Origin: Tachypleus tridentatus
Taxonomy: Eukaryota; Arthropoda; Merostomata; Xiphosura; Limulidae
NCBI RefSeq assembly: GCF_004210375.1
Contig: NC_134829.1
Span: 58,768,107 to 58,832,106, forward strand
Direction of reading: 5' to 3'
Length of the DNA: 64,000 bases
Under the pieces are notes generated by a model. The model did no database searches. It saw only the letters and a program-made list of their open reading frames with translations, and was not told the origin of the DNA. Position numbers and translations under genes: made by a program. Below, piece by piece: positions 2,979 to 49,574 of the stretch (its first letter is position 1; every line of letters starts with the position of its first letter).

Positions 2979-3392
2979 AAACCATGAGGGGACATATGTA
3001 TTAGGTAATATTAAAGTCAAACCATGAGGGAACATATATATTGGGTAATATTAAAGTCAAACCATGAGGGAACATATGTATTGGGTAATATTAAAGTCAA
3101 ACCATGATGGAACATATATATTGGGTAATATTAAAGTCAAACCATGATGGAACATATGTATTGGGTAATATTAAAGTCAAACCATGATGGAACATATGTA
3201 TTGGGTAATATTAAAGTCAAACCATGATGGAACATATGTATTGGGTAATATTAAAGTCAAACCATGATGGAACATATGTATTGGGTAATATTAAAGTCAA
3301 ATCATGATGTAACATATATATTGGGTAATATTAAAGTCAAACCATGATGGAACATATGTATTGGGTAATATTAAAGTCAAACCATGAGGGAG
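2979..3392. repeat. 40-bp minisatellite, about 10 copies
   Basis: The unit reads approximately 'aaaccatgagggaacatatg' followed by 'tattgggtaatattaaagtc' and repeats about 10.3 times with few changes. The main variants are GAGGG versus GATGG, and TATGTATT versus TATATATT. The unit length is not a multiple of three and no frame stays open, so it is non-coding. Confidence 0.95.
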
Positions 3393-4918: not shown

Positions 4919-5097
4919 TCAAAATGACCGGGTTGTGAAGCGTATTTTGTCGGTATTTATTATCATATTTCTGATTTCTTTGATGTGTTTTCGGCTGACA
5001 CTAACGCTATCTATTTCTAGAATTTCGTCACCAGGATCAAGAATTCCAATGAGTGAAATAAATGTTTCGAAATTTTTTATACGAGTAACGAAAACTC
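4919..5097 (-). CDS. Terminal exon: second half of a PDZ domain
   Basis: This exon encodes the C-terminal half of a PDZ domain, a module that binds the C-terminal tails of partner proteins and scaffolds complexes under membranes. It reads GVFVTRIKNF and then GDEILEIDSVSV, matching the usual PDZ strand 'GIFV.RI' and the 'GDEIL.VNG..V' turn, and ends IRFTTRSF with a TGA stop, so the protein ends within or just after the domain. The acceptor is TAGTTTCAG/GA. The exon enters in phase 1, exactly what the donors of both first-half exons (6,605 and 10,802) deliver, joining as ...NSN-G-VFVTRI. The half-domain reminds me of PDZ domains of the PAR-6 and SYD-1/RhoGAP100F kind, but I cannot choose between them. 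The family is secure; the gene identity is not. Confidence 0.75.
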
Positions 5098-5927: not shown

Positions 5928-6199
5928 TTGTTTGCGTTTGAAATTCGCACAAAGCTTCACGAGAGCTATCTATGCCAGGCGTTCCTAATTTAAAATGTAA
6001 TACAACAAGGAAGGCAGCTAGTCGTCACCGCCCATAGCCAACTCTTGAGCTACTCTTTTACCAGCGAATAGTGGGATTGACCGTCAGTTATAACAGACCC
6101 ACGGCTGAAAGGACGAGTATGTTTCGTGTGACAGGGATTCGAACTCGCAACCCTCGGATTACGATTTCAATGTGTTAACCATCGGGCCAAGTCGGGCTC
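5928..6199 (-). repeat. tRNA-Thr-derived SINE
   Basis: A near full-length reverse copy running from the 3' tail 'gaaattcgcacaaagct' to the degraded tRNA head at 6,120-6,199. It sits in an intron of the PDZ gene. The 15 bases after its head (aaaactattgaagtg) also follow the SINE at 9,790, hinting at exchange between the two sites. Confidence 0.9.
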
Positions 6200-6604
6200 A
6201 AAACTATTGAAGTGTTTTCCAATGAAGCGAAAGCAATCGTATAGCAGAGCACATAGGACAGCAACAGACTCCAAAACCAAACCTTAGGTCAACTCAGAGC
6301 AGCCTTATCCTTAACGAAATATAAACTATGACTACATGATGTGTTGTATCCTACAGATTGTATTATTATTCTCATAATTCGTAGCATGTGCACGATTCAC
6401 TAACGTCACGGCAGTACAAATTGCAATGTTAAAGCGTTTCTTAAATGACAACATTTCAGTGTCTAGTAACTAAGTTATAGACAGACAACACACTACCATA
6501 AAGTGGTGTAAATGATTAAAATGGGTGATCTCTCCAGGTCATCTTTTACTGTAATAATAATAATAAAAGAAACGCTATTCTGATACAAACAAGAGACTGC
6601 TTAC

Positions 6605-6774
6605 CATTACTGTTCTTTAACTTCTTCTTAGCAATACAAAATCCGAAAGGTTTATTTCTAGGCTTCACTATCTCTATAACACGTTTTTCATCCTCTTCAA
6701 ATTTAATGACACGACCAGTTGGGTAATTCACAACTGGTGAGCTATCCAACTCGATTTCTTCATTATCATTGCTA
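6605..6774 (-). CDS. PDZ first-half exon, copy A
   Basis: The exon encodes an acidic lead (NDNEEIELDSS) and then EKRVIEIVKPRNKPFGFCIA, the first strand and carboxylate-binding loop of a PDZ domain, with FGFC in the position of the usual GLGF. It ends KNSN plus one base before the donor G/GTAAGC. The upstream acceptor is CTCTAG after a pyrimidine-rich tract. The exon is 170 nt, entering in phase 2 and leaving in phase 1, so it splices in frame to the terminal exon at 5,097 and completes the domain. It differs strongly from copy B (10,802-10,965) although the introns around both are almost identical. Gene identity is unknown; PAR-6 or SYD-1-like PDZ domains are the closest I recall. Confidence 0.65.
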
Positions 6775-6944
6775 CTAGAGTGTGTTTTGGAGAGAAAAAA
6801 TGTTGTTAAAGCACAGATTGTTGTTTCCCTTTTATACATGCATAAATTAAAAAGGTGAGACATCCAATTACTGTCATGCCACGCGGATGAGAGTAAGAAA
6901 TAAACAGAAAAGAAACTACGACATGGTTGTTCAAAGAAGTCCAA

Positions 6945-7874
6945 CGAAGCTGTATGATATACAAAGTCAATACAAGTTAGTGTTTAATATAAACGTATTT
7001 TAAATTAGAAATCGTCGATTACCCTAGGGACATGTTAAAATCTGTTACATTTTTCACATCACTCTTCCTTCAAACAGATCCTTTCAGAGATTAAAAGATA
7101 ACATAAATTTATACTTATTATATTCTACTTGGACGGGCCAGCAATAACTGATATTCAGTATGCAGTGTTGCGTTTCTCAGTGTCTAATATTCGAGCCACA
7201 ATGCAGCTGAATACAGCCCGTAAGTTCGGTTGTACTCGGGTTATAGTAATGGCAGTCATTCCCATTCTTCGGGTCTAACAGACGGCTAAAGTTTCTTATG
7301 GTAATGAGTAGTTGGTCAGTTGTTTAGAATTAGGAATGTTAAGTGATTCTGACTTGCCATTTAGCCCTTGTGAGCATAAAATACCCATCAATTGAAAATA
7401 TCGGAATCAAGCTACTGAGAGACTTTCCAGGAGATTTGAGAAATTAAGAACTCTTAGTTTTCAACCAGAGAATATTCGTGATGAAATGTACGAGGGTTTC
7501 ATACAAAAACAAAAGAAAACGCCTACTAAATGTCAATTGGATGTTCAAGTTATTCACCCTCTAGATATTTAGTCTCAGGTAAAATAGAGTTAAATGGTCA
7601 GTATAGCTTTCACTCGTATGAGAAAAAATAGGCAAAAGGCACACAACGTTGTCCACAAAGCCACTTATCACAAAGCTTTAGTGTTTATCCTTCGGCTAAA
7701 CTGTACACTGTGAAAACGATTACATGGATATGTGTAGTAAGAAATGTAGGTTTCTGAGAGGGCCGTAAGAAGCGATAAGTTCAGTCAGACTTTTTCGTAA
7801 AGCTATACATTACGTTGAGTATATGTAGTATGAAAATACGGTATCCTAGTTAATTCATAAAACCTAGAACTTAC
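6945..7874. other. Intron with a short conserved open stretch
   Basis: Mostly intron of the minus-strand gene. At about 7,131-7,283 the plus strand has a 51-codon open stretch including ATMQLNTARKFG and VIVMAVIPILRV, duplicated nearly unchanged at about 11,323-11,480. It has no obvious splice sites and I do not recognise it. It may be a transposon remnant. Confidence 0.3.
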
Positions 7875-7984
7875 GAGTCGTGACACCAGACTCTTTCCTG
7901 CTTGGTTTGATGCTTACAACAAAAACTCTTTTAAACCCGTCCTCAATCCTCTCCTTCAATGATTTCTTCTGCGGGGCAAAGTCA
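7875..7984 (-). CDS. Exon 'DFAP', copy A (possible PDZ strand segment)
   Basis: A 110-nt segment between a good acceptor (TTCTATTCCAG) and a strong donor (GTAAGT). It has one open frame, entering in phase 2 and leaving in phase 1. It reads DFAPQKKSLKERIEDG and then KRVFVVSIKPSRKESGVTT. The last part resembles the PDZ motif 'VFV..I.P.....SGV', so it may be part of a second, divergent PDZ domain. It joins in frame to the exon at 9,271-9,349, making an S codon at the junction. It does not join in frame to the PDZ first-half exon at 6,774, so an unseen exon lies between them or the two are alternatives. Copy B has one extra base in a run of A. Confidence 0.5.
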
Positions 7985-7999
7985 CTGGAATAGAAGCAA

Positions 8000-8935
8000 T
8001 ACTTACAAATAATTAATTTGTCATACTATATTTACACAAAAGTGACTTGTATGAGAGAAGATCAATATTTATTTAAATGAATTGTGTTATATTGATAAAT
8101 CAGTTCCTTAATGTTAATGGTTAACAACTGAGATAAAATTGGTAAATATCACGATCCACACTAAAACAATTATTGTTCAGACAGTATAACAGTATGAACA
8201 GTATTTCAATAACTACTAGATCTGTCGTGTATCAGTGAAACTGTGGAGTCCTGCTATTATACAGAGGTGCTCGATAATAGTGGATATTGCAGATGTAATG
8301 GAGTTAACATATTCTTCTCTACTCTCATTCACAAGTTACTATAATACCCACACTAAAATTACTTATAATGAAAAATGGTTGCAATTGTGTATAGAGAAAA
8401 ACAGTAGTTGAGGTTTGTCAGATGATTATTAAACGTACTTAAATATTTATATGGTGGAATAGATAACGAATTATGGTTATTTCATGGTCACATAAAACAT
8501 ATGTTACCAAATTTGTCTGCTTGAATCAAAAATACAAGAATTAAGGTCCCAAAACAAATTATAAGTGAAAACGACTCTACAAGATGTTGACGGCAAAGAT
8601 GTTATGACAGGTAGCGTTTAACTAGTTGTAGCCAAGCAGCAAAGGTGCAATGTATTGAAGAAATACATAGGTTATGTAAGTAACTATGAAACCTAATTAT
8701 ATCATTGGATTACATACTTTTCATTGAATTTTAAGTTAACAGTTTTTCTGCTTGATAACAGATTATAATCATCAATAGTACGCATTCTTATCAAAACACA
8801 AGTTTTATGGTGAGATAAAAACAACTAAGAACAACAATATATAATATACATGAACTGTTACATATTTACTGAGAAACTATTTTAAAATATTTTTATAATT
8901 TTAATTTTTTTCGATACTTAGTCTATTTGATTTGG
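8000..8935. other. Intron of unit A
   Basis: AT-rich sequence, duplicated almost unchanged at about 12,196-13,135. I see nothing else in it. Confidence 0.5.
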
Positions 8936-8939
8936 TTTC

Positions 8940-9195
8940 TTTTAAATTTTGCGCGAAACAACACGTAGGCTGTATACACCAACCATATTTTCAGCAATTG
9001 TAGTCTAAAGGAAAGACACCAAGTCAACACCTTACACTGTCAACTATTGGGTTACTCTTAGATCAACGAATAATGAAATAGACTGTCATATTTTAATTTT
9101 CCCTTTCGACTAAATAGGTTGAATGTGTTTGGTGTGACAGGAGCTCAAAACAGTTTTCTGGGTATTGTGAGCAGAGCGTCCTGGCAACCACTTAG
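8940..9195 (-). repeat. Old degraded SINE (also at 13,140-13,390)
   Basis: Follows the order of the tRNA-Thr SINE in reverse: a 'ttgcgcgaaa' tail, 'ttgggttactctt', 'atcaacgaataatg', 'gtgtttggtgtgacagg'. It is much more diverged than the other copies. It was present before the tandem duplication, because both units carry it. Confidence 0.6.
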
Positions 9196-9214
9196 ATAAA
9201 AGTCAGGATTTATT

Positions 9215-9300
9215 TGAGAATACATACCTATTGGGTATGAAAATCCCGGTAGGAACTTGAGAATACATACCTTTTGGGTATGAAAATCCCGGAAGGAACT
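9215..9300. repeat. 43-bp tandem duplication across a splice donor
   Basis: The segment 'gagaatacatacctattggg' through 'cggtaggaactt' occurs twice in a row. On the minus strand each copy contains the exon end and the GTATGT donor, so the exon has two donors 43 bp apart. Using the distal one would run into an in-frame TAG. The same duplication is in unit B (13,412-13,498), so it predates the unit duplication. Confidence 0.8.
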
Positions 9301-9349
9301 GATTCTTCTTCTTCATTCCAGATTGTATCATTAATTGGCCAAGATTCAC
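9271..9349 (-). CDS. Exon 'ESWP', copy A
   Basis: A 79-nt segment with acceptor CTTAG and donor GTATGT. Its open frame reads ESWPINDTIWNEEEESVPSG and then IFIPK, entering in phase 1 and leaving in phase 2. It therefore follows the PDZ first-half exon of unit B (phase 1 out) and precedes the 7,875-7,984 exon (phase 2 in) without a frame break. A related peptide, ISDTLCELQEKSVPPEIVTK, is encoded at 14,400-14,480, which supports this being coding. The product segment is acidic and has no recognised fold. Its donor region is duplicated just downstream. Confidence 0.45.
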
Positions 9350-9519
9350 CTAAGTCAAGATAAAAAATACTGATTTCTACAAAATTAAATAACATCTAAA
9401 CTAGTTTTGCTTTGATATCTAGTAAGGAATCTGCTATATTAAATAATTAAATTCAAAACACAATAACAGCAGCTTTTACACGAGGTAAACTATGACTTTA
9501 ATAACTACATCGTATTGTC

Positions 9520-9790
9520 CTTTTTTTTTACGTTCGTGCAAAGATACACCAAAACTGTCTTTGCTAGCCGTCCCTAATTTAGCAGTGTAAGACTAGAGGG
9601 AAGGCAGCTAGTCATCACCACCCACCGCCAACTTTTGGGCTACTCTTTTATCAACGAATAAAGGGATTGAACCTCACATTATAGCGTCCCCACAGCTGAA
9701 AGGGCAAACATGTTTGGCGCGACAGGGATTCGAACTCGAAACTTTGGGATTACGATTTGAATGTATTAACCACCTGGCCAAGTCGGGCTC
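9520..9790 (-). repeat. tRNA-Thr-derived SINE, flanked by about 90-bp direct repeats
   Basis: A reverse copy with recognisable body and head. It lies between two imperfect copies of about 90 bp (9,430-9,520 and 9,855-9,945) that share 'aaataattaaattcaaaa' and 'gactttaataactaa'. These are far longer than a normal SINE target duplication. The unit B equivalent is at 13,719-13,983 and lacks the second flank copy. Confidence 0.85.
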
Positions 9791-10106
9791 AAAACTATTG
9801 AAGTGAAATTTTAAACGTTAAGATAAAATTGTTTCAGTTACAATGCAAAACCTGCTTGACTAAATAATTAAATTCAAAATACAATAACAACAACTTCTAC
9901 ACCAGGTAAATCCTGACTTTAATAACTAAATCATATGGACCTTTAATACGACATCATCATCATCAGTTCAAAACTGTTGTTATCGTAATTTTAAATTAAC
10001 CGTCACGTTATTTTCTGCCGGATAATGCCATGATAATTTTGTTTCCCTATAATTAATTAATTTTAAAATAAAAATTGAACACATAATCCTATCATCTTTC
10101 TTTAGA

Positions 10107-10395
10107 TTTGCACTCGGCCCGGCATGACCAAGCGTGTTAAGGCGTGCAACTCGGAATCTGAGGGTCGCGGGTTCGCATTCCCGTCGCGCTAAACGTGCTC
10201 GCCCTTTCAGCCGTGGGGGCGTTATAATGTGACGGTCAATCCCACTATTCGTTGGTAAAAGAGTAGCCCAAGAGTTGGCGGTGGGTGGTGATGACTAGCT
10301 GTTTTCCCTCTCGTCTTACACTGCTAAATTAGGGACGGGTAGCACAGATAGCCCTCGTGTAGCTTTTGCGAAATTCAACAGCAAACAAACAAACT
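10107..10395 (+). repeat. tRNA-Thr-derived SINE with clear target-site duplication
   Basis: A full-length copy from the GGCCCGGCATGACCAAGCG head (tRNA-like, CGT in the anticodon place) to the 'aaacaaacaaac' tail. It is flanked on both sides by 'tagatttgcactc' (13 bp). The matching place in unit B (about 14,166) has no SINE, so it inserted after the unit duplication or is missing from B. Confidence 0.95.
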
Positions 10396-10801
10396 AGATT
10401 TGCACTCACGACATATATTAATCATCTTGATGTTTGGTGAAGGGACTTCTGACGTGTTTTGTACCAAGAACAGATAAAATCAAAATGAATCGTCACAAAT
10501 ATTTTAATTTCTTGCTTTTCAAGTTCTTACTTCATGCTGTGTTGTATCCTACAGATTGTATTATCTTTCTCGTAATTCGTGGCATGTGCACGATTCACTA
10601 ACGTCACGGCAGTACAAATTGCAATGTTAAGCGTTTCTTAAATGACAACATTTTAGTGTCTAGTAACTAAGTTATAGACAGACAACACACTACCATAAAG
10701 TGGTGTAAATGATTAAAATGGGTGATCTCTCCAGGTCATCTTTTACTGTAATAATAATAATAAAAGAAACGCTATTCTGATACAAACAAGAGACTGCTTA
10801 C

Positions 10802-10965
10802 CATTACTGTTCTTTAACATCTTCTTAGCAATACAAAATCCGTGAGGTTTATTTTTAGACTTTATTATCTCTATAACACGTTTTTCATCCTCTTCAAATT
10901 CAACAACACGACCAGTCGTGTAATTCCAAACGGATGAGCTATCCCATTCAATCTCTTCATTGCTA
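10802..10965 (-). CDS. PDZ first-half exon, copy B
   Basis: The counterpart of 6,605-6,774, with the same splice sites and phases (2 in, 1 out), 164 nt. It reads NEEIEWDSSSVWNYTTGRVV and then EKRVIEIIKSKNKPHGFCIA, and ends KNSN plus one base. Against copy A there are 11 amino-acid changes and a two-residue deletion. Many codons have changed at two positions, and the loop residue before GFC is H instead of F. The conserved core (EKRVIEI, NKP, GFCIAKK, LKNSNG) is kept, as expected of a functional alternative exon. It could splice to the terminal exon at 5,097 in place of copy A, or to the exon at 9,349. Confidence 0.65.
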
Positions 10966-12070
10966 CTAGAGTGTGTTTTGGAGAGAAAAAATGTTGTTAA
11001 AGCACAGATTGTTGTTTCCCTTTTATACAAGCATAAATTAAAAAGGTGAGACATCCAATTACTGTCATGCCACGCGGATGATAGTAAGAAATAAACAAAA
11101 AAGAAACTACGACATGGTTGTTCAAAGAAGTCCAACGAAGCTGTATGATATACAAAGTCAATACAAGTTAAAGTTTAATATAAACGTATTTTAAATTAGA
11201 AATCGTCGATTACCCTAGGGACATGTTAAAATCTGTTACATTTTTCACATCACTCTTCCTTCAAACAGATCCTTTCAGAGATTAAAAGATAACATTAATT
11301 TATACTTATTATATTCTACTTGGACGGGCCAGCAATAACTGATATTCAGTATGCAGTGTTGCGTTTCTCAGTGTCTAATATTCGAGCCACAATGCAGCTG
11401 AATACAGCCCGTAAGTTCGGTTGTGCTCGGGTTATAGTAATGGCAGTCATTCCCATTCTTCGGGTCTAACAGACGGCTAAAGTTTCTTATGGTAATGAGT
11501 AGTTGGTCAGTTGTTTAGAATTAGGAATGTTAAGTGATTCTGACTTGCCATTTAGCCCTTGTGAGCATAAAATACCCATCAATTGAAAATATCGGTATCA
11601 AGCTACTGAGAGACTTTCCAGGAGAGTTGAGAAATTAAGAACTCTCAGTTTTCAACCAGAGAATATTCGTGATGAAATGTACGAGAGTTTCATACAAAAA
11701 ACAAAAGAAAACGCCTACTAAATGTCAATTGGATGTTCAAGTTATTCACCCTCTAGATATTTAGTCTCAGGTAAAATAGAGTTAAATAGTCAGTATAGCT
11801 TTCACTCGGATCAGAAAAAATACACAAAAGGCACACAACGTTGTCCACAAAGCCACTTATCGCAAAAGCTTTAGTGTTTATCCTTCGGCTAAACTGTACA
11901 CTGTGAAAAACGATTACATGGATATGTGTAGTAAGAAATGTAGGTTTCTAAAAGGGCCGTAAGAAGCGATAAGTTCAGTCAGACTTTTTTCGTAAAGCTA
12001 TACATTACGTTGAGTATATGTAGTATGAAAATACGGTATCCTAGTTAATTCATAAAAACCTAGAACTTAC

Positions 12071-12181
12071 GAGTCGTGACACCAGACTCTTTCCTGCTTG
12101 GTTTGATGCTTACAACAAAAAACTCTTCTAAACCCGTCCTCAATCCTCTCCTTCAATGATTTCTTCTGCGGGGCAAAGTCA
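12071..12181 (-). CDS. Exon 'DFAP', copy B (one base longer)
   Basis: Almost identical to 7,875-7,984, with one substitution (K to R) and a run of six A instead of five. This shifts the frame in the second half: the PDZ-like VFVVSIKPSRKESGV is lost and the phase out becomes 2. In that phase it would join in frame to the PDZ first-half exon at 10,965, which copy A cannot do. It is either a real frameshift, a sequencing error in a homopolymer, or the original state. I favour copy A's frame as the coding one because its residues look like a protein strand. Confidence 0.4.
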
Positions 12182-13139
12182 CTGGAATAGAAGCAATACT
12201 TACAAATAATTAATTTGTCATAGTATATTTACACAAAAGTGACTTGTATGAGAAAAGATCAATATTTATTTAAATGAATTGTGTTATATTGATAAATCAG
12301 TACCTTAATGTTAATGGTTAACAACTGAGATAAAATTGGTAAATATCACGATCCACACTAAAACAATTATTGTTCAGACAGTATAACAATATGAACAGTA
12401 TTTCAATAACTACTAGATCTGTCGTGTATGAGTCAAACTGTGGAGTCCTGGTATTATACAGAGGTCCTCGATAATAGTGGATATTGCAGATGTAATGGAA
12501 TTAACATATTCTTCTCTACTCTCATTCACAAGTTGCTGTAATACCCACGTTAAAGTTACTTATAATGAAAAATGGTTGCAATTGTGTATAGAGAAAAACA
12601 GTAGTTGAGGTTTGTCAAATGATTATTAAACGTATTTGAAAATTTATATGGTGGAATAGATAACGAATTATGGTTATTTCAAAGTCACATAAAACATATG
12701 TTACCAAATTTGTCTGCTTGAATCAAAAATACAAGAATTAAGGTCCCAAAACAAATTATAAGTGAAAACGACTCTACAAGATGTTGACGGCAAAGATGTT
12801 ATGACAGGTAGCGTTTTACTAGTTGTAGCCAAGCAGCAAAGGTGCAATGTATTGAAGAAATACATAGGTTATGTAAGTAACTATGAAACCTAATTATATC
12901 ATTGGATTACATACTTTTCATTGAATTTTTAAGTTAACAGTTTTTCTGCTTGATAACAGATTATAATCATCAATAGTACGCATTCTTATCAAAACACAAG
13001 TTTTATGGTGAGATAAAAACAACTAAGAACAACAATATATAATATACATGAACTGTTACATATTTGCTGAGAAACTATTTTAAAATATTTTTATAATTTT
13101 AATTTTTTTCGATACTTAGTCTATTTGATTTGGTTTCTT

Positions 13140-13390
13140 TTAAATTTTGCGCGAAACAACACGTAGGCTGTATACACCAACCATATTTTCAGCAATTGTA
13201 GTCTAAAGGAAAGACACCAAGTCAACACCTTACACTGTCAACTATTGGGTTACTCTTAGATCAACGAATAATGAAATAGACTGTCATATTTTAATTTTCC
13301 CTTTCGACTAAATAGGTTGAATGTGTTTGGTGTGACAGGAGCTCAAAACAGTTTTCCGGGTATTGTGAGCAGAGCGTCCTGGCAACCACT
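13140..13390 (-). repeat. Old degraded SINE, unit B copy
   Basis: The duplicate of 8,940-9,195, almost unchanged between units. Confidence 0.6.
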
Positions 13391-13468
13391 TAGATAAAAG
13401 TCAGGATTTATTTGAGAATACATACCTATTGGGTATGAAAATCCCGGTAGGAACTTGAGAATACATAC

Positions 13469-13547
13469 CTTTTGGGTATGAAAATCTCGGAAGGAACTGA
13501 TTCTTCTTCTTCATTCCAGATTGTATCATTGATTGGCCAAGATTCAC
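13469..13547 (-). CDS. Exon 'ESWP', copy B
   Basis: Same splice sites, length (79 nt) and phases (1 in, 2 out) as 9,271-9,349. One synonymous change and one G-to-E change (VPSEIFIPK) bring it closer to the diverged relative KSVPPEIVTK at 14,400-14,480. It is preceded by intron and followed by the same duplicated donor. No fold is recognised. Position and phase place it just before the 12,071-12,181 exon. Confidence 0.45.
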
Positions 13548-13718
13548 CTAAGTCAAGATAAAAAATACTGATTTCTACAAAATTAAATAACATCTAAACT
13601 AGTTTTGCTTTGATATCTAGTAAGGAATATGCTAGATTAAATAATTAAATTCAAAACACAATAACAGCAGCTTTTACACGAGGTAAACTATGACTTTAAT
13701 AACTACATCGTATTGTCC

Positions 13719-13983
13719 TTTTGTTTTTTTACGTTCGTGCAATGATACAGAAGGACTGTCTTTGATAGCCGTCCCTAATTTAGCAGTGTAAGACTAGAAG
13801 GAAGGCAGCTAGTCATCACCACCCACCGCCAACTTTTGGGCTACTCTTTATCAAAGAATAATGGGATTGAACCTCACTTTATAGTGTTTCCACAGCTGAA
13901 AGGGCGAGCATGTTTGGTGTGACAGGGATTCGAACCCGAAACCCACAGATTACGAGTCGAATGCCTTAACCCACCTGGCCATG
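13719..13983 (-). repeat. tRNA-Thr-derived SINE, unit B copy
   Basis: The equivalent of the SINE at 9,520-9,790. It is more diverged from it than the introns are, and its right flank differs. Confidence 0.85.
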
Positions 13984-14278
13984 GCGAACCTCGTTCTTCG
14001 ATGTGGCATCTTTATCAGTTCAAACTGTTTGTTATTGTAATTTTAATTTAACGGTTACATTATTTTCTGAAGAATCATCTCATTATATTTGTCTCCATAA
14101 TTTTGTTTTCCCTTTAATGAATGAAACTGAAATTAATCAACTGAACATATCATTCCTTCATATTTAGTTAGATTTGCACTCACGAAATATATTAGTAAAT
14201 TAGACGTTTGGTGAAGAGTCTTCTAACGTGTTTTGTTTCAAGAGCATATAAGAATAAAATGAAGGTAAAAAAATGTTT

Positions 14279-14494
14279 TTATTTCTTGTTTTCAAGTTGG
14301 TATTTCATTCTGTTTTGTATCCTGCAGATTGTATAATTATTCTCGTGATTCATGGCATGTACACGTTTTACTATTATTACGGCATTACAAAATGCAGTGT
14401 TAAGCGTCCCTTTTGTCACAATCTCTGGAGGAACTGATTTTTCTTGGAGCTCACAGAGGGTGTCACTGATTGCTCTAGGAAAAAATGTGGTATC
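14279..14494 (-). CDS. Candidate exon in shrunken third copy of the array
   Basis: From the acceptor TTGCCTTTGTCAG the frame reads DTTFFPRAISDTLCELQEKS, continues VPPEIVTKGTLNTAFCNAV and stops with TAA inside AATAAA. The first part matches the ESWP exon peptide (SDT...EKSVPPEI against NDT...EESVPSGI). The second part matches non-coding-looking sequence at the start of units A and B (6,333-6,450 and 10,533-10,650). In this copy the two are side by side, so about 2.8 kb between them is absent. It enters in phase 0, which is what the candidate exon at 17,488 delivers. It may be an alternative last exon or a decayed copy. Confidence 0.35.
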   Translation of the reverse strand, partial: DTTFFPRAISDTLCELQEKSVPPEIVTKGTLNTAFCNAVIIVKRVHAMNHENNYTICRIQNRMKYQLENKK

Positions 14495-14889
14495 CTGACA
14501 AAGGCAATTTTTTTTCAGTAACATTGTGATTGGTTTTTGTCTGATTTTAAACCTGAAGAGAAAATAATATAAAGCTGTTTTCATTAACAATTTGACTTCT
14601 AAGAAATTTTTAACTAGTATCTTTGCGAATTATTCCATGTTATACACACACAGATATTTAAATACATGTATGTAAGTTATGAATAGAACGATTATTTTTT
14701 AGTTTTAGGAAGAGAATCCTACAATCACTGAACTCACAAAGAAGATTTAGAACTGAATTGCACTACTTAGAAAATGTAGTACTACCTAAAGGTTTAGGCC
14801 AAAGTTATATAATAGGGCTTGTATTAACGTTCAAAACCACACAATATATTATAACAACCAAATCCATTCTACCGGCATACCATTTCATG

Positions 14890-17668: not shown

Positions 17669-17741
17669 CTTTTTCTTTAGAGCTTTTCTGAGTATTATTC
17701 AAGCTTTTAGGCTTGATCCTGGCCATTCTTTTTTTCTTATC
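17669..17741 (-). CDS. Candidate upstream exon, lysine-rich
   Basis: A 73-nt segment with acceptor CACTAG and donor G/GTAAAA. It reads DKKKRMARIKPKSLNNTQKS and then SKEK, entering in phase 0 and leaving in phase 1. An intron of about 100 bases separates it from the 17,488-17,564 exon and the phases agree. It contains a Met (after DKKKR), so translation could begin here. It is very basic and unstructured. No homology is recognised. Confidence 0.3.
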
Positions 17742-20499: not shown

Positions 20500-21005
20500 T
20501 CTTTATATCTACGGTCAACATCTTTGATTAATTTGATTTCCATCCAAATTAATACAAAAGACTAGATACTATGTCTAAGAATTATGAAAAACATTCCAAT
20601 AGGGTAACTTGGTCCGGCATGACCAAGTGTGTTAAGGCGTTTGACTCGTAATCCGAGGGTCGCGGGTTCGAATCTCGGTCGCACAAAACATGCTCGCTCT
20701 CCCAGCCATGAGTGCGTTATAAGGTGGCGGTCAATCCCACTATTCGTTGGTAAAGGAGTAGCCCAAGAGTTGGCGGTGGGTGGTGATGACTAACTGCTTT
20801 CCCTCTAGTATTACACTGCTAAATTAGGGACGGCTAGCGCAGATAGATCTCGAGTAGCTTTGCGCGAAATTCAAAGACGAAAACAAACTTATATCTGCTT
20901 TATACTCACGGCCAACATCTTTGATTAATTTGAATATTTTCATCCAAATTAACACAAAAGACTAAAAACCATGTCTAAAAGATTATGAAAAACATGTCGA
21001 CAGAA
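20500..21005. repeat. About 110-bp direct repeat flanking a SINE
   Basis: Imperfect copies at 20,500-20,610 and 20,885-21,005 share 'caacatctttgattaatttga', here caacatctttg-attaatttga, then 'catccaaattaa' and 'acaaaagacta'. The SINE at 20,611-20,885 lies exactly between them. Confidence 0.8.
20611..20885 (+). repeat. tRNA-Thr-derived SINE
   Basis: Full length from 'ggtccggcatgaccaagtgt' to 'gcgcgaaattcaaagacg'. Its inverted counterpart is cut by the window edge at 63,737-64,000. It marks the outermost visible match of the two arms. Confidence 0.95.
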
Positions 21006-21009
21006 GTAA

Positions 21010-21985
21010 CTTTGAACTTCTGTTATAAAATAGCTGTGTTTGTTTGTCTTGAAGCGAAAAGATACAACACTTTTATTCATGCTCACATAATTCAGTAACC
21101 CATAACATACTTTGGGGGGAAGAGGAACTCAAACTGTACTTAATTTCAATTAAAGTGTTAATACCAATACCAGCCGACTTTTGAATACATTTTTCTCAAG
21201 TGGGTTTTCCTCATCATGAATCAGTACAACGATTTCTTGCTGGTTTCATTTCCATAAATTTTCTTTCTAGTATACAGTATTACATTGTAAATGGCCCCTA
21301 TCAAGAACTCGTACAACCCAAATTAAAAGGACATCTGTATTAGTTTTATATTATGATTTTATTTCCTACAGATACAATCGTTCCGCTTTAGCTTCTGCAA
21401 TCGTAATTAACAGAAGCAGTGACTGAGGGGTTTTCGGTTGGAAACAAGTTGTGTAAAGGAACTGCTGTATTATTTCGTTTCTGGATATAATAGTACATGT
21501 TTTTTACATTTTTAAGAGATAAAATAAATTTTTCATACATTTGGGTTGGGTATTGACAGCAAATATAATTAAGCAAAAATAATAATTTTAATGTTAATTC
21601 CATTATAATATCTTACTTCTCTTTTATAAGACGAAATATCAATATTTTTAGGCTTCTTGTTCTTCACTAACTTTCCGAAATTCTTTTCTTTACGTTTAAC
21701 GTTGCTAAGATACTCTGTAGTATAATCAGTATTGACGTCATTACTTGAAAGTCATTGTTAAATTCTACTAAGTAGATGTCCAATCACAGCCGTAGAAAAT
21801 ATGCAGGTGACAATACACATATGTTATTTTTTTAATGAGTGTTTTCCCACAAGACATTAAAAGAAAAAATTGGATAAATATTAACAAAGAATTGGGAGTT
21901 CGAATTTACCCGTTACATAACATGCTCGCTCTTTTATCCTTACTAGTGTGTATTCTTTCATTCAAAAGGACGTTATAAAGTTATT
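21010..21985. other. Unannotated stretch with a retroelement-like tail
   Basis: Near 21,165-21,225 the text 'accaataccagccgac' and 'tctcaagtgggttttcctca' resembles the Penelope-like end at 2,690-2,720. Otherwise nothing is recognised. The mirror is at 62,630-63,607. Confidence 0.35.
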
Positions 21986-21989
21986 AGCT

Positions 21990-22890
21990 GCTCAAGAGTA
22001 CGAGTCAAGTACTTTAAGTCCCAAGATATACCAGGTCGCTACGTACTAAAGAAAATTAGTGACGAAGGTATACGATTTTATGTAGAACTTATATAATTGG
22101 AGAAGTTAGAGGCAATGAAAAGAATTGTAGATTATGTGAAATGGAAGCAGTAGTCAGAGGGTGAATAATTTATTAATATGAAAGGGATATATCATATGAC
22201 AGTGTCTTTCAGGATGATAGAAAGAGTGCTATTAGTGTTAGAGTAAAAAATAATGAATTTACTTGTTATGAACCTATTATGTTGACAAACAAATTTCAGA
22301 ATTTGGATTCTGCATATGAACTGTTGGAGAAAATGAAAACAAAAGGATCAGAGAAGGATATGGAAGTTGTAGGAGATTTATCGACAAGATATATGGTTAG
22401 AATAATCTGTTGGTAAATGAGGACAAAATAATTAGATTATGCTATGTGGGAGAACAGGTGGAGAGTATAACCAAGAATTAACTGTGTAAATGAAGTTATA
22501 AGTAGGTCACTAGGGTTAAATGTTAGGTTTAGGTTTCAGTAAGTAAACTGTAAGGATGAGCAGTCTGACTGGACTTGTATCGATCAAGTTCATCGGAAGA
22601 AGGGAGCTCTTGGAATGGGTGGTTTACACTTAAATACTGTAGCAGCTGGCTTGTTTTCTAAGACTATTAACTCAGCTATAAGGGAGGTTTTAAACTAAAA
22701 CTAAACAGTGGTGAGGGCCAGAAGAAACTTAACACAAAGAGAATAAAAATTTAGCACTAAAGTTAGTACAGTAGTAGAAAAGGATAGACTTGATTGTTAC
22801 TGTTGTAATGCTAGGAGTATAAGAGAAAAAGTATATGATTTTGAAGCACTGGTATTGGAAATAAATTTGGAAAAATTAGTTTTTCAAAGG
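21990..22890 (+). mobile_element. CR1/L2-like LINE fragment (end of ORF1, start of ORF2)
   Basis: Broken frames give GLHLNTVAAGLFSKTINSAI at about 22,620-22,680, the C-terminal block of the SGNH/GDSL-type esterase domain found in ORF1 of several CR1/L2-type LINEs. About 130 bases later comes NARSIREKVYDFEALVLEI, the opening of the ORF2 endonuclease. Upstream, VVGDLS and RLCYVGEQVESI fit the esterase's first blocks. Several stops and frame changes show it is dead, and reverse transcriptase is absent. The mirror copy is at 61,728-62,625. Confidence 0.65.
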
Positions 22891-22899
22891 AGATGTTTG

Positions 22900-24530
22900 T
22901 AAATGATGTCCATAAATTTACAGAAAAAAAATTCATTAGGAATTTTGAGTAATTCTTTTAAATTTTAATTCTAAGTTGAAAATTGGTAGACACTTTCAAA
23001 AGTTTAAGTTTACTAGGGATTGATTAGACATAACTGTTCTCATCTTTGTTCACAACTAATTATTTTGTGAACATCATTTCATTTTTATGAAACTTTTTTG
23101 CTACTGTGTTGTCTTAATGGATTACACTGACTATGTTACGAGTTTTCATTCTTCATGGTTTTCCTTTGTCTGTAAAGAAACAATGTGTGGATGACGCTTT
23201 CACTGAAGCTGCATTTTTCCAGAATCTAAAGAGAGAAACATCTTTTCCTTCACAGGGCCTGGAGATCAGAGTCAGTTAAAGACAATGTGGCCATATCCAT
23301 TCTTTCCTGCAAGAGTGATGTTATTTTGGAAATAGTTCTGTCTAAAATGAAGATCTATATATATGTTCACATCCAAACCTTTTTAATTACTTCAAAAGAA
23401 TATTGAGACTGTAAGTCTTCTGATATGGTATGCTTAAGCAGCTTAAACAATTCTTAATTTTTATTTACATTCACTTCTGAATATCCTGAAGTAAATGCGA
23501 CAGAAAGGACATAAAGCAGGTATGGTTAAGTGTTATCAACTGAGAATTAGTACACTCTCTTATTAGGTATATAATAATGTATATAAATGTGATGTAACAT
23601 TTTATAAAGTGATACATAATACAGTTATGAATATTGTAAAATATATTTTAAATTTTAATCTCCAATAGCTGTTTACCTATAAGTCGTCATAAAATAAAAG
23701 GTTTTGTTCCAAAATATGATACTTACGGTTATTTTTTGTCATTTACAGATTTACTTGTCTTACTGTTCCACGAAAAGACAGTTACTACAATTTCATAAAA
23801 TACATGCCAATCTAAGATCACTCATAAATTAAGTATAATGAGCTCCCACAGACACACAAAAAGTTAATTATTCCAATTAGTTTAAGATCGTAATACTAGC
23901 CCATGAACAGAAGTTTGCTCATTTATCAGGTGAAGTATACATTCACAATTCAACAAGTATATTTCATTTGTAACTATTAAAATATGATGAACTTTGTACA
24001 ATTGGACAAAAGATGTACCTATATTAAAATTACTTAAGTTTCTATATTTCATATGACTATGCAAACATAGATTAACATTAAAAAAATTAAAACAAGTGCA
24101 TAATAATTTAACACTACTAATATACTTTCTATTCTAAGAACCTATATGCAAAAGCAAAAAACACGTTACACCAACCCCACTACATCTGCCATTCCCAGGC
24201 ACAGTAATTTCATTCAGAACATAAGTACTGGAATACAAGACTATTTTGATTTCTTCTTTGGTATGTACCCATGAGGGTACAAGGACAGGAGCAACCACAA
24301 CACTGGTGAATTCATTATATTTAACCCTCCAAACTGGCCATTAGATAAGAGGTAGTTTCATTGGTCCTCCAGTCATTTCTGAGAAATGTATAAATATGTT
24401 GAGAAAACATCTAGGGGAAAGATATTTTAAAATGGTCACCTTGCATAACTTGATAAGTGCAAAAACATCCAGAACTGGAATATTTCTGGTCAATCAACAT
24501 GTTTAAGCAAGTTCACTGACAATATGGTTA
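22900..24530. other. Unannotated AT-rich stretch, left arm
   Basis: No gene is supported. The mirror is at about 60,085-61,720. Confidence 0.45.
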
Positions 24531-24534
24531 ACCT

Positions 24535-24612
24535 TTCTTAACCTGAATATGACCTGGGAAGGTCAAAACATTGTTCTCTCCTTATCAATAAAAGTATTAA
24601 TATCCATACCAG
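24535..24612 (+). repeat. Degenerate Penelope-like tail
   Basis: The sequence 'cctgaatatgacctgggaag' followed by 'gtcaaaacattgttctct' follows the 2,599-2,640 motif (core, GACC/GGTC hairpin, AAAC, ttgttc) with decayed core bases. The mirror is at about 60,005-60,080. Confidence 0.4.
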
Positions 24613-24619
24613 TCATACA

Positions 24620-27250
24620 ATATGGCTAAAGTATTGGTAAAAAGTTGTTATTGGTTTTAAAGAGACAGATAAATCTACAAAAAAATCTATCAGTGTGAAG
24701 CTGAACTGTGGAGGAAATTATCGCAATGTGACTTGTACATCTGGTGAATCTGTATGGAAAGTGAATGCTGCTGGAAAATATTGTGTATATACTAAAATGC
24801 CTTAAAAAGTTAAGACTTGTGAAATGCTTTAGTGTATTAGATGTAAGTGACCAATCTTAATATGCATTACCATTGGAGGCTACTTATAAAACACTAGATG
24901 TCTATTTTGATGACTTGATATTTTGATGTTCACAAACATTTTTATTGTCTGTCCAGTCCTCTATTAATTTTGAGTAAAATGTGTGCACATTTGTTTTAAA
25001 CTTCCAATGAGTAAATAAGTAGGGTATGTAGCAAATAAGTGAATTTTCAACTATGTTATAGCAGAAGACAGGCTTCATAACATAAACAGTTTTGAAATGG
25101 TACTATTTGATTTATGAAAACACACACAAAGCTTGACTTATCAGTGTTAATGATTCAGTATTATCATTGTTAATGAAAATAAAGTATAATGTGAAAGTTT
25201 GAAACTGTATAGATATTGTGGATAGAGATGAAAACAAGGTATGGTAGTGTTTATAGCAAATACGAGTTTTCGCACTTGTGCTGCTTTAGCTTGTGAAGTT
25301 CCATGGTTTACACCAGTAATAAATGATGTAGGTTTTTCTGTAAATCAGTCTATTCAGTTTTGTTTTTTCTGTGAAGGCTGTGTGATTTGCCTTTATATTA
25401 TTTCTAAGATTGTTATTCTGTGATTTTAGTATAGGAGTTATCATTTTATTCTATATGGCCAACCTCTGCCTTTGGTCTATGAACATTCTGAAGTTAAATA
25501 TGAAATGAAGATCAAATTTCATTAATACAATTAAACAACAAATAAAGCATACAATATAGTCAATCAAATGAAAATAAAATTGTATTAAAAGTTTCTTTTA
25601 TATGCCATAGTTTCATCTCCTGTAGACTTAGGGTTAACAAGATTGTCTTTTGTTTGTGAAGGGATCTATGAGGCAAGAAAACTGAAAACCATTGCTGTAT
25701 AGACTTAATTATAAAAACTAAAAAAAGTCTCCTTAAAGTAATACAGATATATTGGCTGTGTTTCTGAAATGTCTTTACTTTTTTGCATATCACTTAGATG
25801 TGAATAAATGCAAGCAGTTATACAGCAACTGAATTTCTATATTTGCATAATAATAATAAGTATTAAAGCTTAACAGTGTATTAAACTGTCTGAACAGTGC
25901 TCAGTTATGATGCTTAAAACAAAATGTTATGTTTTATCTCTCAGTCATTATTTCTCTTCCCATAGTTGTGTTACCATAAAACAGCCTGTTTGTTGGTATT
26001 GATTTATACTTGAATTTGTGCAATATGTTAAAGTTGGTTGAAATATTATAAAATAAACAGGTGTCATAGTGATGCTAGTGTGCTTATTAACAAATTCCTT
26101 ACATGCATTAAGATCTTTAACAAAGTTGGTAAGGAAAATCTGCTGAAAATGTGACTTTCAGGTTTCATTTCCTGCACTTAAACATTTTTTTTAATGATAT
26201 TGCATGTCTTATTACACATTATAGAAACAATAATTATACAAGTAGGCTATGAAATGGCTACTGAAAGACATAAATCTATGTAACAGGTTCTTTCTTTTGT
26301 AAATTTTATATTTAACTTGTTTCATCAGCAATCCTTCAAAAAATTATGGCTTTGATTATATTGAAAGAATTCCTAAAAGTATTTAGTTCATAAAGTAATT
26401 CTGTAAAGGCATAAATGTTTTGTCTGAGGATTCACCAAAATAATATTTTAAAAGATGTTTTCATACATGCATTACACACGTGTACACACAAGGTTTTACT
26501 CTCAGAATTTCTTTTCAGTGAAAGTATGACATTAAAGATTACATGGTTTTGGAAATATTTTAAACTAGAAATGTGCAGGGCATAAACTTTGTGGCTTCAA
26601 AAGAACAAAGTACTAAGATTAATATTTCATGAATTATTAATTGAAGACTGGACATTTTAGTTTACTATAAAGCTTTAAAACTTAGAATTAAAGAAATTCA
26701 AGCACCTTTTGGAAAACGGAGCGACCTTCTTATGAAGTGAAAGGTAAAAGCCAATCATTCAAAGTGTAAAGATTTCATGAATTATCAATCATAATTGTTT
26801 AAAATTGCTAAAAATATTTTACCAACCATTCAATGGCATGATCCTTGATACATTTTGAAAATTTTGAGTTAAATGATACTTTGTGTGTGTGTGAGTGCAC
26901 TTTAATTGTGTCTGTTTGGATTATTCATTTTTTGCCTTATCTTTGTGTTTGACAGCTTTTTGTTACATTTTGTTTTGAAAAAAAATGTGTGCCAGTTACA
27001 TTTTTTTTATAATGTCATCAGTAAAGTTATTATATGTAGTTAATTAAATTGTTTTGGTGTCATTTAGTTTTCTCATTTTAGCAACTGAGCTATGCCTAGT
27101 ACTATAATAATTGTTTTGTTTTGTTTGGTAAAAGTACAATTTTTTATTTTATTTATTATAATATATTAATATAAAAATGACAATGTGCCATACTGATGTT
27201 ATTGCTGTCAAGTCATACAGTTCATTTATGTAATGCTAAGTTCTTTAGCA
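24620..27250. other. Unannotated AT-rich stretch, left arm
   Basis: No exon or repeat is recognised. Short mirrored frames at 25,241-25,423 and 25,560-25,793 occur in both arms only because the arms are copies. The mirror is at about 57,367-59,995. Confidence 0.5.
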
Positions 27251-27252
27251 CT

Positions 27253-27425
27253 GGCCCGGCATAGCCAAGCATGTTAAGGCTTGCGACTCGTAATTTGAGG
27301 GTCGCGGGTTCGCATCCCCCGTAGCGCCAAACATGCTTGCCTTCCCTCTAGTCTTACACTGCTAAATTAGGGACGGCTAGCACAGATAGCCCTCGAGTAG
27401 CTTTGTGCGAAATTCAAAACAAACC
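27253..27425 (+). repeat. tRNA-Thr-derived SINE with internal deletion
   Basis: The head (ggcccggcatagccaagcat) joins directly to the late body (cttccctctagtcttacact), with the middle third missing. 'tctttagc' lies on both sides as a likely target duplication. The mirror at 57,190-57,364 has the same deletion. Confidence 0.9.
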
Positions 27426-27429
27426 AAAC

Positions 27430-28225
27430 CAATCTTTAGCTCTTGGTCTCATAAATTGGTGATACAAATATAATGTAGAGAATTATCTATCAAAAATACT
27501 ACACTAAGTTATGGAATGGAATTGGTAAAGTTAATTACTCAGCAGAAATATTTTAAATCCATACATTCAATTGAACTGCTAAACTTGATTATTCTACAGA
27601 TTTTACCACTACAAAATTATGCAATACAATGTTCTTAAAATCTTCATATATGCTTTTAGTTTCAGCATCACATTTTTTATAAATAAAATAGGTTATTAGA
27701 TAAGCTTGCTGTTGCAATGTTTAGTTGGAAAGTTTATAACCATACAAACATTGAAAACATTCTCATTACTGATAACTACATAAAGTAATACTGACTATAA
27801 ATTATTATTATATACACTAGTTACAGAATGTAATGTATCTGATCTTCAATTATTTTTTTTAGTTTGCAATTAAGTACAATAAAATGACATTTATAATAAT
27901 GTTTTAATAGTGAAAGTTAGACTTTTAACCTTTAACCAAATGCTTGCAGGTGAATTTTCACAAAAATAATGCTAGCAGAGGAAAAGATTCTTAAACATAC
28001 TTGTAAATGCTTTATGTAAAATTGATAATAATTACATCACACACATGAAGTACATTTATTGTAGTGTGTCAAAAATTATCCGTGGGTTATTTCATTCTTA
28101 TATGTAGTGCTTAGGCACTGCTTTGTCTGTGGTATCCCATTTAGCTTGACAAGCTCTAGTATTTAAACACAGTAACAGTACAAAACTGAAGATTTGAATG
28201 AATATTTATCTTGTGTATAACTGAT
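27430..28225. other. Unannotated AT-rich stretch, left arm
   Basis: Nothing is recognised. The mirror is at about 56,395-57,187. Confidence 0.45.
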
Positions 28226-28227
28226 AT

Positions 28228-28640
28228 TGTTGTTCCTCCATCTGAAGTAAAGAGAATTCCCAGTGAAATTCATAAATGCTAAAAAAGGTTAAATGTAGCT
28301 GGCAAATGAAATCAGGATGGCAATAAGTGTAGCAAACAAATATCTTGGTATAACTGATAAAAGACTCTCCAAAAATCCAGTAAGTATCACTACTAGAAAT
28401 ATTAAAATACATATCTGGAAGAAAAGGAAATCTCTCCTCAGCAAGGCAGTATAGACAATATCAATAATATGGTATAACTGTCAAACAAAATCTCTCTTCA
28501 GTAGGGCAGTAATTACAGCAACTAAAAATATTCAGGTATATAAATACCAAAATAAATCTCTCTCCTGAAGGGCAGTAAGTATAGCAAATATCAATATTGT
28601 GGTACAACTTACCAAATTAAATCTTCAGAGGGAAGAGTAA
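28228..28640. repeat. Degenerate tandem repeat, about 60-75-bp units
   Basis: Phrases such as 'aaatctctcttcagtagggc', 'agtaagtatagcaaa' and 'atatcaatattgtggtacaa' recur four to five times in the same order with indels. The 68-codon minus-strand frame inside it has no domain. The mirror is at 55,975-56,390. Confidence 0.6.
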
Positions 28641-28649
28641 GATGTAACT

Positions 28650-29715
28650 AGCAACATCCAGGTATATTATTGATTTAAAAATTAAGAAAAAAAACTCCAG
28701 TATTAATAGATCACCAGAAAGCTGATTGTTTTGAAGTAGTAATGTTTGAACAAATAAATTAATTAGCTACTGCCAACCAGAACAATAACATCTATACACA
28801 AGAGAATCATTTTGAGTGAGAAAATCTCTACCAATTGACAAATCTGTATATCTGATGGAAAAAGAAAATCCATTATGTGCAAATCTCAGAAAACACAATT
28901 CCATAATCCAAACCATAAAAATAACTACTGAAATTTCAAAAACCATCACTGTGTAAATTCCTTAGAAGTAATATACAACATTTGTTTAACAAAGAAACTT
29001 GCAAAACATGACACCACAAACACCTAAAGAAAAACAAAAATAATTTGAGCTTAGTTCATATGCTGAATAAAAAAACTATTTGCATTAAAACAACGTGTAC
29101 AAATTCAGTAAAAGAACAACTAGCAACTTTAAGGACATAATATAAAACAAATTATTATTGGCCATCACAGAAAAACTAAAAGTGCATGGCATAAATAAGA
29201 AAACCCAAACTTATCAAGCACTCCACAGAAAAATACAGTTAAAATAATGAACAATTCATGGACTGTCAGAAATTAGAAAATGCAATAAAACAAAAAGTCA
29301 GTGATTGTAATAACATCAAATAGAAATGCAAGACAAAAAAAACTGAAAGAAAACTTCTAATAGTGACACGTATTAAAATTTTCATATGAAGAAACATAGC
29401 ATTCTGTATAATAAGTACTGATACCTAACAGTTAAGATTTGTGAAAGACATATACAAATCCAACCTCCAAAGGACCAACATGACAAATATAACAGTACCA
29501 CCAGATGTTTCAGTAGCAAAGATAATACCATTCTGAAAATACATTCTATCTTCTCTCTCTATCCAACATACAACACCCATGTTATTTTATTTACAACATT
29601 ACAATGAACCTGACATCAAGAAATATATAAATAAAAACTTGTAACCATAATATTTTTCATAAAGCTTCTCTCAAATGACAAAATTTAAGTACAACTATCA
29701 GTAAAAACAATTTAT
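28650..29715. other. Unannotated AT-rich stretch, left arm
   Basis: Nothing is recognised. It borders the truncated 5' side of the Copia fossil. The mirror is at about 54,905-55,967. Confidence 0.45.
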
Positions 29716-29717
29716 GA

Positions 29718-32639: not shown

Positions 32640-33270
32640 CTGCTTTCAGTACCTGATTTATTTGTGCTACACCTATTACTACTACTGCAGTTTCATCTGT
32701 GATTGCAGGATTGTTATGAATTACTCCAGTTGTAACATTAACAAATCAAGTTCCAGAATTTAGCTGTTCACATCAACAACATTACCCAATTAATAAAAAA
32801 ACAGACTATGATGGAAAGGTACTAAGACAGATATACATTAGACGCGGTTCAAATTTCCACAGTGGTATAACAATAAGCTATTTATCTAGATACCCACTTA
32901 ATAGAAACAGTTTTAATGACAACTGGCGTACCTTCAGCCAAGAGTCGTAACAACTATTAAACACTGGTAGCTGCCTTGTCCAGGTCCTGAATGACACACC
33001 AAAAGAAGTTTCCAAAACAAAATCCCAGTACAGCGTCACGGAGAAAAGAAGGCATATTTGCCAAACTTGTGAAGAAACATGAATTTGTCATATTATCTTA
33101 CCCAAATGCTCTGCATGAAATGATGGGTTCACTGGCACATTATTAACTTAAAATACCATAACAAATGAGAATGGCAAATTAGGCAGAAGCAAAAGTAGAT
33201 ATACATCTTTAAAGAAAGTTCTCTTATGAACAATAGCATAGTCATCATTACTCATATTCTGAATTTATTT
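32640..33270. other. Unannotated stretch, left arm
   Basis: Between the Copia LTR and a SINE. Nothing is recognised. The mirror is at about 51,340-51,973. Confidence 0.45.
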
Positions 33271-33288
33271 GATTCACGTAAGTCTGGG

Positions 33289-33562
33289 TTTGGTTTGTTA
33301 TGGAATTTCGCACAAAGCTACTCGAGGGCTATCTGTGCTAGCCGTCCCTAATTTAGCAGTGTAAGACTAGAGGGAAGGCAGCTAGTCATCACCACCCACC
33401 GCCAACTCTTGGGCTACTCTTTTACCAACGAAAAGTGGGATTGACCGTCACATTATAACGCCCCACGGCTGGGAGGGCGAGCATGTATGGCGCGACTCGG
33501 GGCGAACCCGCGACCCTCAGATTACGAAGCGCACGCCTTAACGCGCTAGGCCATGCCAGGCC
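33289..33562 (-). repeat. tRNA-Thr-derived SINE with 12-bp target duplication
   Basis: A reverse full-length copy bounded by 'cgtaagtctggg' on both sides (33,277-33,288 and 33,563-33,574). The mirror copy at 51,058-51,327 has the same duplication. Confidence 0.95.
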
Positions 33563-33574
33563 CCGTAAGTCTGG

Positions 33575-35060: not shown

Positions 35061-35061
35061 A

Positions 35062-35137
35062 AAAACTAGGTTCCAATACCTCTGGTAGACACATCACAGA
35101 TAGTCAATCCATTGTGTAGCTTTGTGCTCAACATTAA
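35062..35137 (+). repeat. SINE fragment of the second family at the inner arm edge
   Basis: Reads 'ggttccaatacctctggtag' and then 'cattgtgtagctttgtgctc', matching the 37,358 element's second half. The arm homology stops inside it at 35,124. Confidence 0.7.
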
Positions 35138-49500: not shown

Positions 49501-49505
49501 GGCTA

Positions 49506-49570
49506 CAAAGCTACACAATGGATTGACTATCTGTGATGTGTCTACCAGAGGTATTGGAACCTAGTTTTTA
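49506..49570 (-). repeat. SINE fragment, second family, mirror copy
   Basis: The mirror of 35,062-35,124, cut by the end of homology at the gap. Confidence 0.65.
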
Positions 49571-49574
49571 AAGT

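Follow-up and report, generated by a model that had tools for sequence, protein, structure and literature searches.

Divergent exon types in near-identical introns of a repeated PDZ half-domain module in the horseshoe crab Tachypleus tridentatus

How can two tandem copies of a gene module differ sharply in one short exon while the introns around that exon stay almost identical? The question is raised by a 64,000-nucleotide stretch of the 2.17 Gb genome of the horseshoe crab Tachypleus tridentatus (C5:58768107-58832106; hereafter the window, whose coordinates are used for all positions given without a contig). Contigs are labelled here by C-numbers, copies of exon B by L-numbers and annotated proteins by P-numbers. 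The window holds part of a repeated-module gene consisting of an upstream exon, then units of three exons (D, A and B), then one exon C. Self-BLAST finds two tandem copies of the 3.45 kb unit, and the second carries a divergent version of exon B, denoted B'. We consider it probable that old exon types survive in this gene family while conversion or unequal exchange homogenizes the surrounding DNA, as in the primate L/M opsin genes. The features on which the argument turns are listed below with lengths in nucleotides (nt); exon types and arrays are described further on.

6331..9780, minus strand: tandem unit 1 (D, A, B), from self-BLAST and profile; 96.6% identity to unit 2
10529..13981, minus strand: tandem unit 2 (D', A', B'), from self-BLAST and profile
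6605..6774, minus strand: exon B of unit 1, type I, predicted first half of a PDZ domain; 170 nt, phase 2 to 1, from splice sites, translation and Pfam
10802..10965, minus strand: unit 2 counterpart of exon B (B'), divergent in sequence; 164 nt, type II with a middle stretch common to types I and III
6775..7874, minus strand: intron between exons A and B (A-B intron), unit 1; greater likeness within arrays than between them; exon B type barely reflected
6331..6604, minus strand: 3' flank of exon B, unit 1; low divergence, yet exon B type still tracked
7875..7984, minus strand: exon A of unit 1; 110 nt, frame broken by the lack of one base relative to A'
12071..12181, minus strand: exon A' of unit 2; 111 nt with an open frame (phase 2 to 2), matching the A part of annotated protein P0001
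9271..9349, minus strand: exon D of unit 1; phase 1 to 2, conserved
13469..13547, minus strand: exon D' of unit 2; conserved
4919..5097, minus strand: exon C, predicted second PDZ half; phase 1 to stop, the one copy found in the window

The original prediction, made from the letters of the window, placed the two exon versions at 6605-6774 and 10802-10965 and counted about 20 substitutions and a 6-base deletion between them, with more than 100 identical bases on the donor side and about five differences in 240 bases on the acceptor side. These figures are borne out. The exon boundaries are right: the two exons measure 170 and 164 nt on the minus strand and are bounded by an acceptor ctctag and a donor gtaagc. 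Between them 20 substitutions and one 6-nt indel are counted, all between 6622 and 6765; the first difference past the donor lies at 6457, 147 bases beyond the exon, and five differences fall in 6775-7014. The estimate of about 16 amino-acid-changing substitutions was somewhat high, as the Nei-Gojobori method (NG86) gives 13.5 nonsynonymous and 6.5 synonymous changes, but several codons are indeed hit twice (five of them), and 11 of the 15 changed codons alter the residue. The 20 differences in 164 positions of exon B compare with 48 in 2950 (1.6%) in the rest of the compared unit; because the binomial P is about 4e-12 and the densest 164-column stretch among 2000 random placements holds at most 14 differences, the excess is not due to chance. 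The synonymous divergence per site (dS) of the pair is 0.25 (6.5/30.2 sites) and the nonsynonymous divergence (dN) 0.11 (13.5/131.8 sites), a dN/dS ratio (omega) of 0.43. Silent-site divergence in exon B thus exceeds that of the rest of the unit more than 10-fold, and selection on amino acids cannot be the whole story.

The pattern extends across a dispersed family. Two genome searches, one with each exon B version, scored 40 of 79 and 40 of 73 candidates and gave at least 52 distinct copies, the window's two included, on 10 contigs and at about 28 places, many of them arrayed at a spacing of about 4.2 kb. Since only these candidates were scored, more copies probably exist, and because copies were found by exon similarity the more diverged exons are under-represented. 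All 52 copies were aligned with 1.5 kb on either side; positions below 6331 were excluded from the counts, being non-homologous between copies (nucleotide diversity, pi, up to 0.28). In 50-base bins, diversity has two peaks within the aligned unit, at exon A (0.12-0.14) and exon B (0.09-0.13), and the other bins of 6331-8230 range from 0.008 to 0.065. Over all pairs, introns differ by 3.2%, and the proportions of differing silent and replacement sites (pS and pN) are 0.160 and 0.087 in exon B and 0.236 and 0.097 in exon A. All copies share their introns, with 94.6-100% identity to window unit 1 over aligned pieces. Exon A hardly differs between the window's own two units, despite its family-wide peak. 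Neither of the other two exons has a comparable peak: pi is 0.025 in exon D against 0.016 in its flank (17 copies, namely both window units and 15 others from arrays with exon A types a and b) and 0.037 in exon C against 0.023 in its flank (14 copies), neither sample containing a C8 or C9 copy. For exon C, 17 short stretches were fetched, of which 9 held the exon and 8 did not at the expected distance. A chimera had been named as one outcome that would undo the observation; the recurrence of the same exon versions among 52 copies and 10 contigs indicates that a local assembly chimera is not the explanation.

Exon B copies were sorted by a sequence rule of our own on exon B motifs into type I (16 copies, among them L035, an inner mosaic unit), type II (14) and type III (21), with one unassigned; many copies are mosaics of these types. 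Exon A falls into types a (36 copies), b (13) and c (3). The two sets are loosely linked: type a is seen beside all three B types, type b beside II and III but never beside I. In group comparisons, two type III copies from C8 and C9 were grouped separately with the unassigned copy. Between B types I and II, dS is 0.38 and dN 0.16 (omega 0.43, interval 0.19-0.99), with introns differing by 3.4%; between A types a and b, dS is 0.70 (omega 0.30, 0.08-0.85), with introns differing by 3.2%. Over eight group comparisons dS runs from 0.098 to 0.97 against 3-5% in introns, and in six of the eight omega is 0.18-0.43 with all upper bounds below 1, which denotes constraint and not a functional difference between types. 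Within types I, II and a, exon and intron diversity are similar (0.031/0.024, 0.040/0.034 and 0.027/0.029, respectively), so faster ongoing mutation of the exons is not needed for most of the family. Nine differences are fixed between types I and II in 6331-8279, all inside exon B; their presence there follows partly from the motif-based definition of the types, but their absence from the flanks does not. As a separate observation on the arrangement of types, the five B copies found in an array at C14:7655914-7672405 alternate III, II, III, II, III, without type I.

Comparison of arrays gives opposite groupings for exon B and the adjoining intron. Distances were taken over 37 copies in 13 arrays, nine of which have a type I end unit and four of which have none. 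For all nine type I end units, the A-B intron is closer to the inner neighbours of its own array than to the end units of other arrays; in exon B the same nine lie nearer to end units elsewhere than to their inner neighbours, by a factor of 2.7 to 10. Mean A-B intron distance is 0.0207 within arrays and 0.0317 between them (0 of 2000 shuffles as low), and the contrast is much stronger for exon A (0.028 vs 0.124), while exon B is nearly as distant within arrays as between them (0.083 vs 0.093; 262 of 2000 shuffles as low). Pooling nine neighbour pairs, divergence is 12-17% in the exon B interior, 1.1% in the first 50 bases of the A-B intron and 0.8% in exon A.

Trees agree with this separation in part. 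In the exon B tree, type II forms one clade with a support of 99.8, partly by construction. Approximately unbiased (AU) tests on 30 rows, in which some pair tests lacked two different rows on one side, reject this clade for the A-B intron (type I and II rows only, p 0.0004) and for exon A with its 5' flank (p 1e-5). All four combinations occur in 1125 of 3116 pairs of exon B and intron sites, and site association is lost within 125 bases on the 5' side of exon B. Exon B and the flank on its 3' side keep the type, while the 5' side is largely reshuffled or homogenized within arrays. Homogenization of introns around protected exons, one of three causes offered by the original prediction, fits best, given the opposite intron and exon groupings in the nine arrays and the AU rejection by the A-B intron.

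Exons B and C together encode a PDZ domain, as judged from profile scores: against Pfam PF00595 (cutoff 23.2 bits), B joined to C scores 29.0 bits, B' joined to C 25.7 bits and P0001 31.9 bits. The curated cutoff for the domain is therefore reached here by B and C, with the domain divided between two exons. A search of PDB sequences gave one match, 1v62 (E 3.4e-5); the AlphaFold2 model of P0001 had very low confidence (mean predicted local distance difference test score 32.9) and was set aside. The phases allow D (1 to 2) to be followed by A (2 to 2), B (2 to 1) and C (1 to stop), a series also present in P0001; the B part of P0001 is copy L043 (C5:59061454), not the B of the window. Exon A lies outside the PDZ match of P0001. 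We had entertained exon A as an alternative, mutually exclusive first PDZ half, and dropped the idea, as annotated proteins show D-A-B-C in one series and A' is open.

The phase 1 end of exon B makes the next exon D a possible splice partner as well, and in annotated proteins P0003 and P0004 B is joined to the next D at an internal donor. Such inner B exons would encode a half-domain only. The change responsible for an internal donor, 27 bases before the normal one, is present in 11 of the 14 type II copies (for example among L012-L020), and at the normal donor the sequence is GTTAGC in 11 of the 14; the window's B', also type II, keeps the normal donor. Type is tied to position as well: among the 14 B copies for which a C region was seen some 1.5 kb downstream, type I accounts for 12 and type II for two (L016 and L018); three other type I copies (L006, L008 and L045) have no exon C at about that distance. 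Type I may be the version that completes the PDZ domain, and type II may serve as a linker. In both units (9214-9300 and 13412-13498) the end of exon D carries a 43-base tandem duplication that repeats the 5' splice site.

The sequence of events that we favor would run as follows. Gene conversion or unequal exchange between tandem units would continually overwrite introns and D exons, a process that exon B would escape, as would exon A between arrays. The escape could come from selection that removes converted exons, from a mismatch of 10-20% that aborts exchange, or from both. Arrays already holding types I and II would later have been copied to many places in the genome, and the unit proximal to exon C, able to complete the PDZ domain directly, would mostly keep type I.

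Several observations weigh against this account. Its weakest point is the 3' flank of exon B, where 260 bases follow exon type (two label changes on the tree; squared correlation, r2, 0.40-0.47), where the type II clade is not rejected (AU p 0.28) and where, in nine of nine cases, type I end units are closer to other end units. This flank nevertheless differs by only a few percent, so that an earlier homogenization that then stopped has to be assumed in addition. In the A-B intron tree good support is limited to 10 of the 48 inner branches, and labels II and III are clustered (1 and 3 of 500 shuffles as low, respectively, against 68 of 500 for type I). Two array pairs on C5 are rejected as pairs by the A-B intron, and whole arrays seem to have been recently duplicated there; duplication of whole arrays also makes the copies non-independent. 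Exon A is homogenized within arrays as the introns are, and thus behaves differently from exon B. Only 39 of 52 exon A copies and 38 of 52 exon B copies are open, and with 13 and 14 not open, selection cannot be protecting all exons today. Two of the eight omegas are not below 1 (0.85 for types I and III, with dS 0.098; 1.44 for type II and the C8/C9 group, with dS 0.123), both with wide intervals spanning 1. Within types III and b, finally, exon diversity is about twice that of the intron (0.055/0.027 and 0.041/0.020).

An unlikely alternative is that young copies acquired their A and B exons through conversion whose tracts end at the exon edges, the donors being old, diverged paralogues with unrelated introns or the cDNA of such genes; the original prediction had likewise named conversion from another paralogue. 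The sharpness of the exon edges speaks for such import: the window pair has no difference in the outermost 9 and 17 bases of exon B (a few family copies also vary at 6771-6772, near the edge), and in neighbour pairs divergence falls from 12-17% to about 1% at the exon edges. The effect involves A as well as B family-wide, and exon B has a mosaic make-up. On the contig matching C7 the annotation includes P0007, a more diverged relative whose D and A parts are changed and which may mark an older branch of the family. Against import, no donor with different introns occurs among the 52 copies, all of which have their introns in common; D and C, although on the same mRNA, lack a comparable peak in the samples described above; and A types are not tightly coupled to B types. 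A bolder form of the idea, which we hold to be improbable, is that exon cassettes would be exchanged among the dispersed horseshoe crab copies by an exon-limited route (for example, conversion templated by spliced RNA or cDNA), old A and B types circulating in young intron frames and building combinatorial PDZ half-domain proteins.

Strong constraint on the introns, for instance by conserved RNA or regulatory sequence, would make the silent sites of the exons the real neutral rate. Three copies on C8 and C9 fit this, their introns being 95.3-98% identical to window unit 1 at an exon A dS of 0.6 to type a. Low divergence, however, extends over some 1.6 kb of the unit outside exons A and B, and constraint would not predict that the A-B intron is more alike within arrays while exon B is not. 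Nothing in the window reaches an Rfam gathering score, and ARAGORN finds no tRNA there. We judge this explanation very improbable.

Diversifying selection on a ligand-binding half-domain, with the introns as a neutral yardstick, was the first cause put forward for the locus, and as the sole cause it has slighter prospects still. The residue before GF does change among copies (PFGF, PHGF, PQGF, PYGF), in what we take to be the carboxylate-binding loop, and the five codons hit twice in the window pair point the same way. Silent divergence is not, however, raised by positive selection on amino acids, and dS of 0.25 in the pair and 0.098-0.97 in the groups stands against the few percent of the introns. 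In the window pair dN lies below dS, omega is 0.18-0.43 in six of eight comparisons, and the values of 0.85 and 1.44 are indistinguishable from 1. The peak at exon A, outside the PDZ match, is also at odds with it. What may survive of the proposal is selection that keeps the types apart. Exon-targeted hypermutation or an assembly artefact, to which the confinement of divergence to two short blocks and the doubled exon diversity within types III and b might point, is the least credible explanation of all given the similar exon and intron diversity within types I, II and a, the amino-acid constraint in six of eight comparisons and the recurrence of the same exon versions on 10 contigs.

A pattern of this kind has precedents. 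In the primate L/M (red/green) opsins, a gibbon study and a review describe a peak of exon divergence amid gene conversion of introns, exon divergence above that of introns, disagreement between exon and intron trees, and selection thought to block conversion in functional exons (PMC3213168, PMC3924837). Here too, exon divergence, silent sites included, exceeds that of the flanking introns. Those two linked genes were followed across species; the present case, unlike theirs, offers at least 52 units at about 28 places in one species, two exons that behave differently and types tied to position. Two further systems are relatives by resemblance. Paralogues of GOT1 in the copepod Tigriopus californicus likewise have regions of high divergence despite apparent ongoing conversion, and rare transfers that make new combinations, but they were studied as paralogue pairs in populations (PMC3728101), not as a dispersed array of exon modules. 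In the accelerated segment switch in exons to alter targeting (ASSET) of viperid three-finger toxin genes, intron segments are highly similar and some exon segments differ and are exchanged; that report calls those segments distinctly different and ties them to changed targeting (PMC2474615), whereas the types here are homologous and omega is well below 1 in most comparisons. The principle, then, is known from the L/M opsins, and the copy number, the mosaic exon types and the two scales of homogenization (exon A differing between arrays, exon B between positions) are different here.

The case for concerted evolution that spares certain exons is usually built on a gene pair, and a single genome here supplies at least 52 units. 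Two exempt exons of differing behavior, together with a sharp edge, make the cause of the stopped homogenization, be it selection or mismatch, testable. Intron identity can make such duplicates look far too young, and a divergence peak limited to an exon is not by itself evidence of positive selection. Protein searches for relatives of the family returned T. tridentatus only, and a literature search that left aside the horseshoe crab genome papers turned up no report of a D-A-B-C family.

One further exon of the gene can be placed in the window, upstream of the two units.

17669..17741, minus strand: probable upstream exon of the same gene (DKKKRMARIKPKSLNNTQKSSKEK), from splice sites; its phase fits exon D, and it resembles the start of annotated P0003

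Between this exon and unit 2, the sequence at 14169-14629 seems to be a relative of the unit, older and in part decayed, that may include a D-like stretch. Repeat copies lie at the unit edges (5944-6214, 9533-9805, 10112-10395 and 13738-13982), with related copies elsewhere in the window; the repeat looks like a tRNA-derived short interspersed nuclear element. On C9, protein P0006 (L048, C9:3216531) is annotated as a fusion in which a DUF4187 domain (51 bits), a domain known from GPATCH11, has D-A-B-C downstream. A minisatellite with a 40-base repeat in about 10 copies occupies 2979-3391. The far side of the window contains a 14.5 kb inverted repeat (20621-35125 and 49505-64000, 99.2% identity), which could be a misplaced haplotig or a real palindrome; its second arm begins at the edge of a gap of 500 Ns (49001-49500).

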